From NCBI GenBank assembly GCA_028816945.1, contig JAPPQG010000018.1:7608-20487 (forward strand): 12,880 nucleotides of DNA, read 5' to 3'. The notes under the pieces are model-generated. The model was not told the DNA's origin. It saw only the letters and a program-made list of their open reading frames with translations, and did no database searches. This stretch comes from Alphaproteobacteria bacterium (GTDB lineage Bacteria > Pseudomonadota > Alphaproteobacteria > RS24). Shown piece by piece: positions 994-12,334 of the stretch. The position numbers and the translations under genes were made by a program. How positions within the stretch are numbered: the first letter of the stretch is position 1; the number at the start of each line of letters is the position of its first letter.

Positions 994-1021
994 GCCTATA
1001 TGACATTATCTATATAACATT
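994..1021. repeat. Two-copy 14-bp tandem repeat at the hpaH-like gene's stop
   Basis: Two adjacent 14-bp units on the plus strand, GCCTATATGACATT (994-1007) and ATCTATATAACATT (1008-1021), match at 11 of 14 positions. The second unit contains the stop codon of the minus-strand hydratase (1010-1012, TAG on that strand), so the last codons and stop appear duplicated outward into the short gap. On its own it could be chance. It is listed because the same arrangement recurs at most other gene ends in the window. Confidence 0.5.
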
Positions 1022-1825
1022 AAAGGCAATTTTGCCTAATCTGCCATAATCAGCCAAAAACCTATCGCCCGCGCGGCAATTCACGGGGCGGGTAAAAGAG
1101 CCAGCTAAAATGAATTCCCCTGCCTGCAAACCCTCATCAAAAGGGGCAAGGCGTTTGGCAAGCCAAATAAGCCCTTTGGCTGGATGCCCCAATATGCCCG
1201 CACCAAGCCCTGTTTCCTCCACTTCGCCATTTCGATAAAGCACAGATCCCGCCCATGCTAAATCAATCTCATTGGCAAGCTGAGCGGGGTCAATTTTCTC
1301 ACCCCCCACAATAAAGGCCGCACTTGCCGCATTGTCTGAAATTGTATCATATATTGTGCGCGTATAGCCCGTTTGCGGATGCACCCGATAAGAGCGGGCG
1401 GCAATAATTTCAAGCATGGGTTGGATATAGTCGGTCGCCTCTAAAACATTTTCTAAACTTAATTCATTACCGATAAGTGTTTTTTTCAACTTAAAGCCAA
1501 ACTCTACTTCAACCCGCGGGTCTAAAAAATCACTTGCAACGAGTTCGCACTCATTTTCAAACAGCATATCATCTAGCAAAATGCCAAAATCAGGCTCATC
1601 AATTTTCATCGCTAATTGCATGGCACGCGAAGTAAGGCCTATTTTTTTGCCTATTTTTTTACGCCCGCGGGCAAGTTTCATATCTATCCAAGCCTTTTGC
1701 ACCCGATACGCATCCTCTAATGTCATCATGGGGTGGGTTTGCGTGAAAGCCTCAATTTGTTGGCCGTTTTGCTCTGCTTCATCTAAGGCGCAGGCCATTT
1801 GCTGAATTATATTTTGTGAAAGCAT
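1010..1825 (-). CDS. hpaH: 2-oxo-hept-3-ene-1,7-dioate hydratase (HpaH-like), 271 aa
   Basis: A hydratase of the HpaH/MhpD family. It adds water to 2-oxohept-3-ene-1,7-dioate to give 4-hydroxy-2-oxoheptane-1,7-dioate, one step before the aldolase that yields pyruvate and succinic semialdehyde. The protein shows family blocks along its length: [12 protein letters not shown] (59-70), [12 protein letters not shown] (77-88), [11 protein letters not shown] (103-113), [11 protein letters not shown] (135-145), [12 protein letters not shown] (164-175), LGAGILGHP (207-215) and [14 protein letters not shown] (241-254). The proposed Mg ligands Glu106, Glu108 and Glu139 are all present, at positions matching my recollection of the E. 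coli enzyme. The length (271) fits the usual ~267. An AGGGA Shine-Dalgarno (1834-1838) lies 8 nt before ATG 1825. It is divergent from the gabD-like gene, which would handle the downstream product. MhpD-type or other 2-oxoalkenoate hydratase activity is the alternative. Confidence 0.88.
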
Positions 1826-2036
1826 AATCTATGTCCCTAGAATTACTTGCAGCTTATTGGAAGCTATTTGAATGTCCCAACCTATGACCCTATGAGAGTA
1901 ATTTATTAAAACAATGTCATTATAATATAGGATATACGACCGCAAAATAGGTTTATTATCGCAAAATATAGGCTATATTTAAGGGGTAATATGCTGATAA
2001 TAGGCTTTTACTTGATATTATTTAATCTGTTGCACC
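1826..2036. promoter_or_regulatory. Divergent promoter region, hpaH-like / gabD-like
   Basis: This 211-bp AT-rich gap must hold promoters for both outward-facing genes. It contains two related inverted-repeat motifs (annotated separately), a 9-bp direct repeat CGCAAAATA at 1941-1949 and 1960-1968, and a strong AGGGG Shine-Dalgarno-like run at 1983-1986 that precedes a small upstream ORF rather than gabD itself. I could not pick clear -35/-10 pairs with confidence. Paired palindromes in a shared catabolic promoter suggest a dimeric regulator; MarR- or GntR-type control is common in such pathways, but no regulator gene is in the window. Confidence 0.5.
1964..1980. promoter_or_regulatory. Perfect 8-bp inverted repeat, candidate operator
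   Basis: AAATATAG and CTATATTT flank a single G, giving a perfect 17-bp palindrome 56 bp before the gabD-like ATG. A shorter relative, AATATAGGATATAC, lies at 1924-1937, so equivalent positions are 41 bp apart (about four helical turns). This is the geometry expected for cooperative binding of a dimeric regulator. The AT-rich composition raises the chance of coincidence. Confidence 0.4.
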
Positions 2037-9643: not shown

Positions 9644-9660
9644 TGCTCGTATCAAATATC
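9629..9660. repeat. 16-bp tandem repeat containing the gyrB stop codon
   Basis: GCTCGTGTCAAATAAT (9629-9644) and GCTCGTATCAAATATC (9645-9660) are adjacent and match at 13 of 16 positions. The second includes the last codons and TGA stop of gyrB (9652-9654 on the minus strand), and the first is its copy outside the gene. It abuts the SCO1 array, so the whole 62-bp convergent gap consists of two unrelated arrays, one from each gene end. Confidence 0.75.
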
Positions 9661-12126
9661 TAAATTCGCCACAGAGAGCGCATTTTCTTGGATAAATTGG
9701 CGGCGCGGCTCAACCACATCGCCCATAAGTTGTTCAAATAAGCCATTGGCTTCGCCAACATCTTGGACTTTCACCTGCAAGAGAGAGCGGGCATTTTGGT
9801 CTAATGTTGTCTGCCATAACTGGTCGGGATTCATCTCGCCCAAACCTTTATAACGTTGCAGACTAAATCCCTGCCGTCCAATATCCAACACAGACTCCAA
9901 AAGCGCAGTCGGCGATATAATGGATATGGTTTTATCCTTATGGGTTAATTTGCCCGCATTGAGATAGGCCGCTTGCAATTCGCCCGCCATATTATCTAAT
10001 TGGCGCGCATCAGCAGAGGCAATGAGCGGGCCGTCAATCCATATTTGCTCTTTGACGCCGCGCAATTCACGGGCTAAATGCAAGCCCCCATCGCCTGACG
10101 GCGCACCCTGCCAGCCGCGTTCAATATCTTCAAAAAGTAAATCTAGCCGTTTGGCAATATAAGCCGCACTCTCAGCGGCTAAATCAGGCTTTGACATAAT
10201 ATCAGGCGTCAAAGCGCCGGCAATCGCTGTTTGCTCAATCACAAAATGCGGATAGCGGGGGGGCAAGGCGTTTAGAATGGTGCGTATTTTGCGGGCTTGG
10301 TCGAGCAGGGCGCGCAAATCTTCGCCGGCGCGTTGTGTGCCGTCATGCAATGTCAAAACCGTATTTTCCAACCCCGCATCGAGCAAATAATTTTCCAAAG
10401 CCAACTCATCCTTCAAATAGGTTTCTGCACTTTGCCGTTTGACTTTATAAAGCGGTGGCTGGGCAATATAGAGATAACCGCCTTCAATAATTTGTGGCAT
10501 TTGGCGGTGGAAAAAAGTCAGTAATAAAGTGCGGATATGCGCCCCATCAACATCAGCATCTGTCATAATAATAATTTTATGATAGCGCAATTTGTCAATG
10601 TTAAAATCATCCTTGCCAATGCCCGTGCCAAGTGCGGTAATCAATGTGCCAATTTCATTCGATGAAAGCATTTTGTCAAAGCGGGCGCGTTGCACATTGA
10701 GGATTTTGCCACGCAAGGGCAAAACAGCTTGATTTTTGCGGTTGCGCCCCTGTTTGGCAGAGCCGCCCGCTGAATCGCCCTCGACAATAAATAATTCGGC
10801 CAAAGCCGCATCGCGCTCTTGGCAATCGGCTAATTTGCCGGGCAGGCTGGAAATATCTAATGCGCCTTTGCGGCGGGTTAATTCGCGCGCTTTGCGGGCG
10901 GCTTCACGAGCGGCGGCCGCTTCGGCAACTTTGGCAACAATATGTTTGGCTTCCGCTGGGTGTTCCTCAAACCATATTTTGAGCGCATCATTGACGACCG
11001 CCTCAACAACAGGGCGTATTTCTGATGAGACAAGCTTATCTTTGGTTTGGCTAGAAAATTTCGGGTCAGGCACTTTAACCGATAAAACCGCGGTCAGCCC
11101 TTCGCGGCAATCATCCCCGCTCAATGATATTTTCTCCCTTTTCAACACACCGCTTGCCAGCGCATAATGATTGACTGTGCGTGTCAAAGCACCCCGAAAG
11201 CCCGCTAAATGTGTGCCGCCATCGCGTTGGGGAATATTATTGGTAAAACATAAAACAGTCTCATGGTAACTATCATTCCACCATAAAGCAGCCTCCACTT
11301 GCACCGCCCCCCTTTCTGCTTTGATATAAATAGGCGTATCAATTAAAGCCTGTTTCGTGCGGTCAAGATAATGAATAAAGGCCGCCAAACCGCCCTCATA
11401 GGTCAATTCTGTCTCTTTAATTTCCGCCCCTCGATGGTCGTTTAAGTGGATTGTCAAGCCACTATTCAAAAAGGCTAATTCCCGCAAACGATGTTCTAAT
11501 GTGTCATAATTAAATTCCGTCATGGTAAAGGTTTTAGGAGACGGCAGAAAAGTAATCTCTGTCCCCGTTTTATCCGTATCCCCAATCACAGCTAAATCTG
11601 CTTCTGCTTCGCCATTGGTAAAGTGCATTTCATGGGTTTTGCCGTCGCGATAAATTGTCAATGTCAATTTTTCAGACAAAGCATTAACAACCGATACGCC
11701 AACCCCATGTAGCCCGCCTGATACTTTATAACTATTTTGGTCGAATTTGCCGCCCGCATGTAATTGCGTCATAATTACTTGTGCGGCCGATATGCCTTCT
11801 TCGGGGTGCATTTCAGCCGGTATGCCGCGCCCATTATCAGCCACAGTCACTGACCCGTCCGCATTTAAGCGTACATTTATTCTATCACAATGGCCGACAA
11901 GGGCTTCATCTATCGCATTATCGACCACCTCATAGACCATATGGTGCAAGCCTGTGCCATCATCTGTATCGCCAATATACATGCCGGGCCGTTTGCGTAC
12001 GGCTTCTAGGCCTTTTAGCACTTTAATCGAAGAGGCGTCATAGTCATCTGCCCCATTGCCGATGGTTTCTGTAAGGGGGTCGGGCGTTTGGCTTGGTTTA
12101 TCAGTTTGGTTTGGTTTATCAGGCAT
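9652..12126 (-). CDS. gyrB: DNA gyrase subunit B, 824 aa
   Basis: The ATPase subunit of gyrase, which with GyrA introduces negative supercoils into DNA. The GHKL ATPase domain shows [11 protein letters not shown] (65-75; catalytic Glu66 and Asn70), DNGRG (97-101), [19 protein letters not shown] (125-143) and the transducer lysine in SQTKDKL (359-365). The TOPRIM domain has [18 protein letters not shown] (446-463) and Mg-binding [18 protein letters not shown] (522-539), and [14 protein letters not shown] (758-771) lies near the end. The ~220 residues between the last two motifs indicate the insert-containing proteobacterial type, consistent with the length. The N-terminus extends ~27 residues beyond the usual start and holds an in-frame duplication ([12 protein letters not shown]). 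GGGA lies a few bases before ATG 12126. The gene follows recF across a 208-bp repeat-filled gap instead of the close spacing common elsewhere. Confidence 0.98.
12086..12121 (-). repeat. In-frame 18-bp duplication at the gyrB N-terminus
   Basis: On the plus strand GTTTGGCTTGGTTTATCA (12086-12103) and GTTTGGTTTGGTTTATCA (12104-12121) differ at a single base. They encode the hexapeptides DKPSQT and DKPNQT right after the initiator Met-Pro. Near identity implies a recent duplication in a non-conserved N-terminal tail. Confidence 0.9.
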
Positions 12127-12334
12127 GTTTTTATCCCATGTGTTTTGCTCTATGGTTTCACTCTATATGTTGTACTCTATATGTTGCACTGTTTCGATTC
12201 ATTTCGTGTTTTCGATTCATGTTGTTTCGATGCATGTTGTTTCGATGCATGTTGTCTCGATTCAGGGCGTTTTGATTCATCTTGTTTTGATTCAGGGCGT
12301 TTCGGCATGTCATTTCGATTCAGGGCGTGTTTCA
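12127..12334. repeat. Tandem array filling the recF-gyrB gap, with 30-bp higher-order structure
   Basis: From the recF stop toward gyrB, the plus-strand units of 12220-12334 are mostly 15 bp: TGTTGTTTCGATGCA twice (12220, 12235), TGTTGTCTCGATTCA (12250), GGGCGTTTTGATTCA (12265), TCTTGTTTTGATTCA (12280), GGGCGTTTCGGCA (12295), TGTCATTTCGATTCA (12308) and GGGCGTGTTTCA (12323). The last six alternate T-type and GGGCGT-type units, i.e. three 30-bp dimers. Longer diverged units (~12189-12219) lead into a second array with CTCTATGGTTTCA (12148), CTCTATATGTTGTA (12161) and CTCTATATGTTGCA (12175), the last two differing by one base. The gyrB promoter, if separate, must lie within these repeats. There are no unique spacers, so it is not a CRISPR. 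Confidence 0.92.

Follow-up and report, generated by a model that had tools for sequence, protein, structure and literature searches.

Why do so many genes in one stretch of a bacterial chromosome end inside a short head-to-tail repeat? The question is raised by a stretch of 12,880 nucleotides from a metagenome-assembled alphaproteobacterial genome (GenBank assembly GCA_028816945.1, contig JAPPQG010000018.1, positions 7,608 to 20,487), hereafter the window, for which the initial annotation had described tandem duplications anchored on the stop codon of nearly every gene. The arrays are real and occur genome-wide, and among the genomes sampled the trait is confined to the lineage of the window. 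We consider it probable (about 0.75) that short tandem duplication is elevated in this lineage and that its products are filtered by selection according to where they fall.

Tandem arrays across the genome and in the window

Arrays were detected with Tandem Repeats Finder (TRF) at a genome-wide cut-off score of 50 unless stated otherwise; scores of 30, 40 and 60 were also tried. The source genome amounts to 1.33 Mb in 238 contigs and is 69% complete. Array counts refer to 100 of these contigs (565 kb, 42.5 kb of that N), with 80 named loci left out of every count, and gene calls come from a purpose-built simple hexamer model, which recovers the main genes of the window and is not a curated annotation. 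The 257 gene gaps (39.2 kb) contained 121 arrays covering 6.5 kb, as opposed to a mean of 1.45 and a maximum of 4 in 20 dinucleotide shuffles. Arrays were also present at other gene ends of the genome, and the excess is genome-wide. Whole contigs yielded 262 arrays (about 500 per Mb; 262 in 522 kb), 227 of them with periods of 12 to 30; by position, 120 are intergenic, 88 lie within genes, 40 overlap a stop, 12 overlap a start and two overlap both.

The organism is an alphaproteobacterium akin to the PS1 clade of the order Parvibaculales. Protein matches at 81% carry the names Parvibaculales and Candidatus Micropelagos thuwalensis, and the gyrB of the window is at most 82% identical to gyrB of the family members searched. 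The noncoding array density of its genome is 2.12 per kb, compared to 0.28 per kb overall in 12 family genomes (14 arrays in 50.7 kb, range 0 to 0.75) and 0.07 per kb overall in six alphaproteobacteria of other families (2 in 28.3 kb, range 0 to 0.78); the relatives' samples were small, 20 to 80 kb per genome, and none came from the organism's own genus. Within genes, the density is 0.22 per kb here versus about 0.04 in the family and about 0.03 in other genomes of the class. Arrays covering a stop number 42 per 406 stops here, 5 per 492 in the family and 0 per 211 in the other families. A check free of TRF, based on the mean excess self-match at lags of 8-30, gave 0.021 for this genome versus 0.0014 for the family and 0.003 for the class.

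The window sits in contig G000:C130 of our set and holds the following arrays, detected by TRF except where stated, with matches of 72 to 100% in the TRF rows.

996..1022, minus strand: 14-bp array of 1.9 copies over the stop (1010) of a hydratase-like gene (p 0.02 versus shuffles)
3495..3533, plus strand: 16-bp array of 2.4 copies over the aldehyde dehydrogenase stop (3500)
3525..3588, plus strand: second array, periods 14 and 28, overlapping the aldehyde dehydrogenase one in the same gap
4504..4535, plus strand: 17-bp array of 2 copies in the methyltransferase-bioB gap, off the stop (TRF and self-match)
5590..5655, plus strand: 11-bp array of 6.1 copies over the bioB stop (5598)
5679..5777, minus strand: 16-bp array of 6.1 copies over the ankyrin stop (5763)
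6362..6415, no strand assigned: 20-bp array of 2.9 copies upstream of the ankyrin gene, in the gap, or overlapping the gene start if the longest reading frame is taken
8801..8841, no strand assigned: 14-bp array of 2.9 copies in a divergent gap without a nearby stop
9584..9630, plus strand: 20-bp array of 2.3 copies over the SCO1 stop (9589)
about 9630..9661, minus strand: two weak 16-bp units, 13/16 alike, over the gyrB stop (9652), seen by eye only and absent from the TRF list
12086..12122, minus strand: 18-bp in-frame array in the N-terminal tail of gyrB
12155..12190, no strand assigned: 14-bp array upstream of gyrB
12190..12328, minus strand: array with periods of 15 and 30 bp between the recF-like stop (12335) and gyrB

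Seven gene ends had been placed inside arrays by the initial annotation. Five of them (hydratase-like, aldehyde dehydrogenase, bioB, ankyrin and SCO1) indeed have a TRF array with a score of at least 47 over the stop. The gyrB end comes down to the two units recognized by eye, and the methyltransferase end (stop 4440) has no TRF row at a score of at least 30, with the best ungapped self-match of the next 100 bp at about 4504-4535. An eighth array had been said to adjoin the recF-like stop, and it does so at a distance of 6 bases. "Nearly every gene end" was too broad: an array covers 5 of the 11 stops in the window, and even so the window is extreme for stop cover when compared with the 42 arrays over 406 stops in the 100 contigs. 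No signal above shuffles was obtained at stops 968, 6580 and 7244 (the segment at 7244 being only 28 bp). Arrays that do not mark gene ends had been passed over, both intergenic (4504-4535, 6362-6415, 8801-8841 and 12155-12190) and within genes (1637-1660 and 12086-12122). The product of the hydratase-like gene has no Pfam match, and its name is that given by the initial annotation. Two adjoining genes for Sel1-repeat proteins lie at 7244-8560 and 6580-7236; the larger one (7244-8560) contains 108-bp DNA repeats that correspond to protein-domain repeats and are separate from the short arrays.

Local origin, differences between relatives and sorting by place

The units of different arrays are unrelated and copied from local sequence, as had been proposed: for 153 of the 171 noncoding arrays, nothing similar occurs at another site in the 565 kb. 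A dispersed repeat family, REP-like (repetitive extragenic palindromic) with one unit at many sites, was rejected, as only 18 arrays have a similar place elsewhere, versus 12 in a reversed-sequence control. We could not reproduce the impression that the units nearest the gene match it best. Among 17 cases, with one array entered under each of its two genes, 9 were for and 5 against, and the identity of adjacent pairs was 0.82 at both ends.

Exact duplications outside genes number only 72. A partial third copy of at least 3 bp accompanies 31 of 66 exact two-copy duplications outside genes, where base composition predicts 1.7%, and 12 of the 27 exact duplications without an adjoining decayed unit. 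The extra microhomology at the edges of exact duplications points to mispairing over a few bases, by replication slippage or template switching; part of the partial third copies may instead be remnants of further units.

Repeat-like stretches also differ in length between relatives. XseA contains three units of the AAKTTE type in this genome; in one sister protein (P0242, 86% identical) this array is shorter by 12 residues, another (P0241, 85%) has kept the length with diverged units, and the run is absent from four aligned outgroup XseA proteins. From these alignments, the XseA array appears to have gained or lost units among relatives. PolA has a five-residue insertion that is absent from P0001 (97% identical over the shared N-terminal part) and that resembles, by eye, an imperfect 15-bp duplication (11/15 alike, unlisted by TRF). 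In the nearest relative (P0121, 96%), the gyrB tail contains an inserted GAEGAE that is missing from the window gyrB. On the comparison of copy number among close strains, which the initial annotation had called for, these three proteins show differences in repeat-like stretches between relatives that are 85-97% identical and of which none is known to be of the same species.

The periods of the arrays differ by place. Inside genes, 82 of 88 periods are divisible by three, as compared to 44 of 120 in gaps. When an array covers a stop, the stop usually belongs to the first unit (35 of 44 cases), whereas 32% would be expected for a stop anywhere in the array. Copies reaching deeper into the gene would change the protein, whereas a copy starting within the last unit length of the gene leaves it intact. 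The first-unit pattern thus fits tolerance, in which only protein-neutral copies would survive. Among the in-frame arrays, some create long repetitive low-complexity stretches in the protein (L187:1248-1370, L211:1966-2115 and L156:5085-5280).

Weighing the explanations

Taken together, we propose that short tandem duplications, the majority 12 to 30 bp in length, arise on this chromosome at a much higher rate than in its relatives or persist there much longer. Each event would copy local sequence when strands mispair over a few bases of microhomology, through replication slippage or template switching; the arrays would later gain and lose units and decay by point mutation. Selection would then sort the products: gaps would keep all periods, genes nearly only multiples of three, and gene ends mainly those copies that have the stop in the first unit and leave the protein unchanged. 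Selective retention at gene ends would create the stop-anchored look.

Duplications could instead be favored at gene 3' ends, for instance through collisions of transcription with replication or through repair at sites of transcription termination, an explanation that we regard as doubtful. Placement was compared with a null in which arrays are shifted randomly within their own gap and may enter a gene end by one period. With start overlap free, 37 stops were covered versus 23.7 expected (standard deviation, sd, 3.5), and 0 of 400 placements reached this number. Forbidding start overlap raised the expectation to 28.5 (sd 3.6, p 0.015) when arrays that do not fit were left out and to 30.1 (sd 3.7, p 0.04) when they were kept in place, and barring 20 or 40 bp before starts raised it to 37.2 or 38.7, respectively. 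Divergent gaps show no depletion near starts, so the 20-bp bar lacks independent support, and we base no conclusion on it. Depending on the null, the stop excess is 1.0- to 1.6-fold at score 50 and up to 1.7-fold at scores 40 and 60. A 3'-end preference would also agree with the tandem gaps, in which 25 stops and 5 starts are covered; with the array density, which is highest in convergent gaps (5.0 per kb, as compared to 3.2-3.3 in tandem and 2.2 in divergent gaps); and with the number of arrays that begin within one period inside a gene end rather than just after it (49 vs 28, p 0.02, at score 40), but at score 50 these numbers are 41 vs 27 (p 0.11). The cleanest test is provided by convergent gaps, which contain no starts, and here 12 stops were covered versus 10.0 at score 50 (p about 0.2), 15 versus 11.6 at score 40 (p 0.10) and 16 versus 12.8 at score 30 (p 0.14), with p values of 0.10 to 0.24 across scores. 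No single offset from the stop is preferred (offset-peak test, P 0.19 to 0.23); array starts within gene ends depart slightly from an even distribution, the deepest fifth having few of them (Kolmogorov-Smirnov p 0.07 and 0.04). Arrays are also common in divergent gaps and in genes, and a slower decay of pairs with one coding copy would on its own favor detection at stops and produce a small stop excess. We conclude that the gene-end look is mostly geometry plus tolerance, with a stop preference of up to about 1.7-fold neither shown nor excluded. Of the proposed gene-end duplication habit, local copying and genome-wide occurrence remain; a special habit of gene ends was not found, with arrays in all gap types and, in frame, in genes.

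That DNA polymerase I has lost its flap nuclease, which would lead to rad27-like duplications between short direct repeats, is improbable in our view. The polA gene is interrupted inside the flap-nuclease domain, PF02739 matching in two pieces, a split seen in no other of the 27 genomes (of 28) that have a match; the pieces presumably retain the conserved motifs. The interruption is a 73-bp two-copy duplication (L252:796-934, contig G000:C178); of the 6 differences between its copies, 5 fall at third codon positions. Copies with mainly third-position differences would both have evolved as coding sequence, which would fit a join of two strains in the assembly. Similar two-copy duplications of 82-95 bp, in or at genes, have third-position differences in 8 of 8 (L159:4758-4947, 95 bp), 7 of 9 (L206:350-512) and 4 of 7 cases (L168:4949-5116) and are probably also strain joins, least clearly so for L168. 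The interruption of polA is therefore probably a strain join, not a decayed gene; P0001 reads uninterrupted through the site, and we set polA loss aside as the cause.

If strains are joined at some sites, all arrays might be artefacts of metagenome assembly, which we consider very improbable. At periods of at least 55 bp and score 80, this genome gave ten rows, part of which are ordinary protein-domain repeats, and 558 kb of family sequence gave none; a separate class of two-copy duplications of 59-95 bp looks artefactual and some of its members resemble strain joins. The short arrays do not fit this picture, as their units are diverged and often more than two, and those within genes are nearly all in frame. 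They show no clear concentration at contig ends (10/198 vs 3.7% of random windows), and at the XseA array and the gyrB tail, proteins encoded on other contigs (JGI) are of different length. Equally remote is the retention of arrays by selection as terminators or redundant stops, two roles that the initial annotation had considered. Some arrays do follow genes, and terminator-like sites (a GC-rich hairpin plus a T-run) were present at 5 of 58 array-bearing stops versus 1.4 in shuffles. However, array-free stops also exceed their shuffles (6/136 vs 2.4; small numbers in both cases), and the mean fold z-score is similar for array-bearing and array-free stops (-0.65 and -0.57), which argues against a role in 3'-end formation. 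Nor do the periods of stop-covering arrays, which are distributed as 16, 13 and 11 by remainder modulo three, have the clear excess of multiples of three that redundant stops would call for, and arrays also occur in genes and divergent gaps.

Several points weigh against elevated duplication sorted by selection. It does not fully explain the stop excess over the null with free start overlap or the surplus of arrays beginning inside gene ends, and tolerance alone does not predict that arrays near starts in divergent gaps are commoner than in the null (14 vs 9.0, score 50). This near-start excess looks like avoidance of the gap middle. A raised duplication rate and slower removal cannot be told apart from these data. 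The responsible enzyme was not found among RecJ, XseA, DnaQ, Ku and polA: RecJ, XseA and DnaQ are in open frames and match nearly their whole models, and Ku is missing from this genome as it is from the 11 other family genomes searched. Only part of mutS can be read, a contig end and a masked stretch removing the rest. An in-frame 12/24-bp array lies inside this mutS gene (L253:738-799), which is partly masked, with the rest off the contig end. Finally, the genome is incomplete and was counted in part, the relatives' samples are small, and the assembly probably mixes strains.

Comparison with known repeat systems

Bacterial minisatellites, or variable number tandem repeats (VNTR), have the same range of periods and head-to-tail form, and a repeat length that differs between relatives is seen here at XseA. 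Their usual densities are much lower than the roughly 500 arrays per Mb of this genome. Beggiatoaceae have intergenic TAACTGA direct repeats (PMC4679880), likewise numerous on a bacterial chromosome; these reportedly have one common motif, unlike the unrelated units described here. In yeast deficient in rad27/FEN1, insertions and deletions occur at short direct repeats (PMC5677150). These events resemble ours in being tied to short repeated sequence, whereas we see no convincing loss of the nuclease in this genome.

Among the systems compared, the repeats of Borgs, extrachromosomal elements of archaea, are best read as the closest. According to the Borg report (PMC9879509), these are head-to-tail arrays of unrelated local units, in gaps and in genes, with unit lengths divisible by three in genes, flanking partial repeats, repeat regions that start within gene ends and differences between close relatives. 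The likeness extends to a unit unique to each region (153/171), gene periods divisible by three (82/88) and flanking partial copies (31/66; 12/27 in isolated duplications). In contrast to Borgs, the window is chromosomal, with gyrB, bioB, SCO1 and a fragment resembling RecF (its Pfam match falls below the cut-off) from an alphaproteobacterial genome, and the arrays are mostly imperfect, while Borg units are given there as perfect and A-rich. A-richness is clear here only inside genes, where the coding strand of arrays has an A-bias of +0.095 (63/88, p 1e-6); in tandem gaps it is +0.03 (36/50, p 0.04), and AT skew in gaps is not significant.

The initial annotation had known of no description of this habit as a genome-wide trait. 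For Borgs, the pattern as such is already in print (PMC9879509), and what is new is that it occurs densely on a bacterial chromosome, with units that are mostly imperfect. Our literature search found no report of the trait on a bacterial chromosome among the matches listed, most subscription papers being outside its reach. It is conceivable, if rather unlikely, that altered replication or repair in this lineage has pushed the frequency of 12-30 bp tandem duplications above that of its family, by anything from several-fold to an order of magnitude, as a chromosomal counterpart of the Borg process and with a modest but real 3'-end preference. In a small genome, short duplication would lengthen gaps and give proteins repetitive tails, and in this lineage one could watch selection sort such events according to where they fall. 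The lineage would also offer a natural case for finding out what normally limits short tandem duplication in bacteria, and a counterpart against which to set the as yet unexplained repeats of Borgs.

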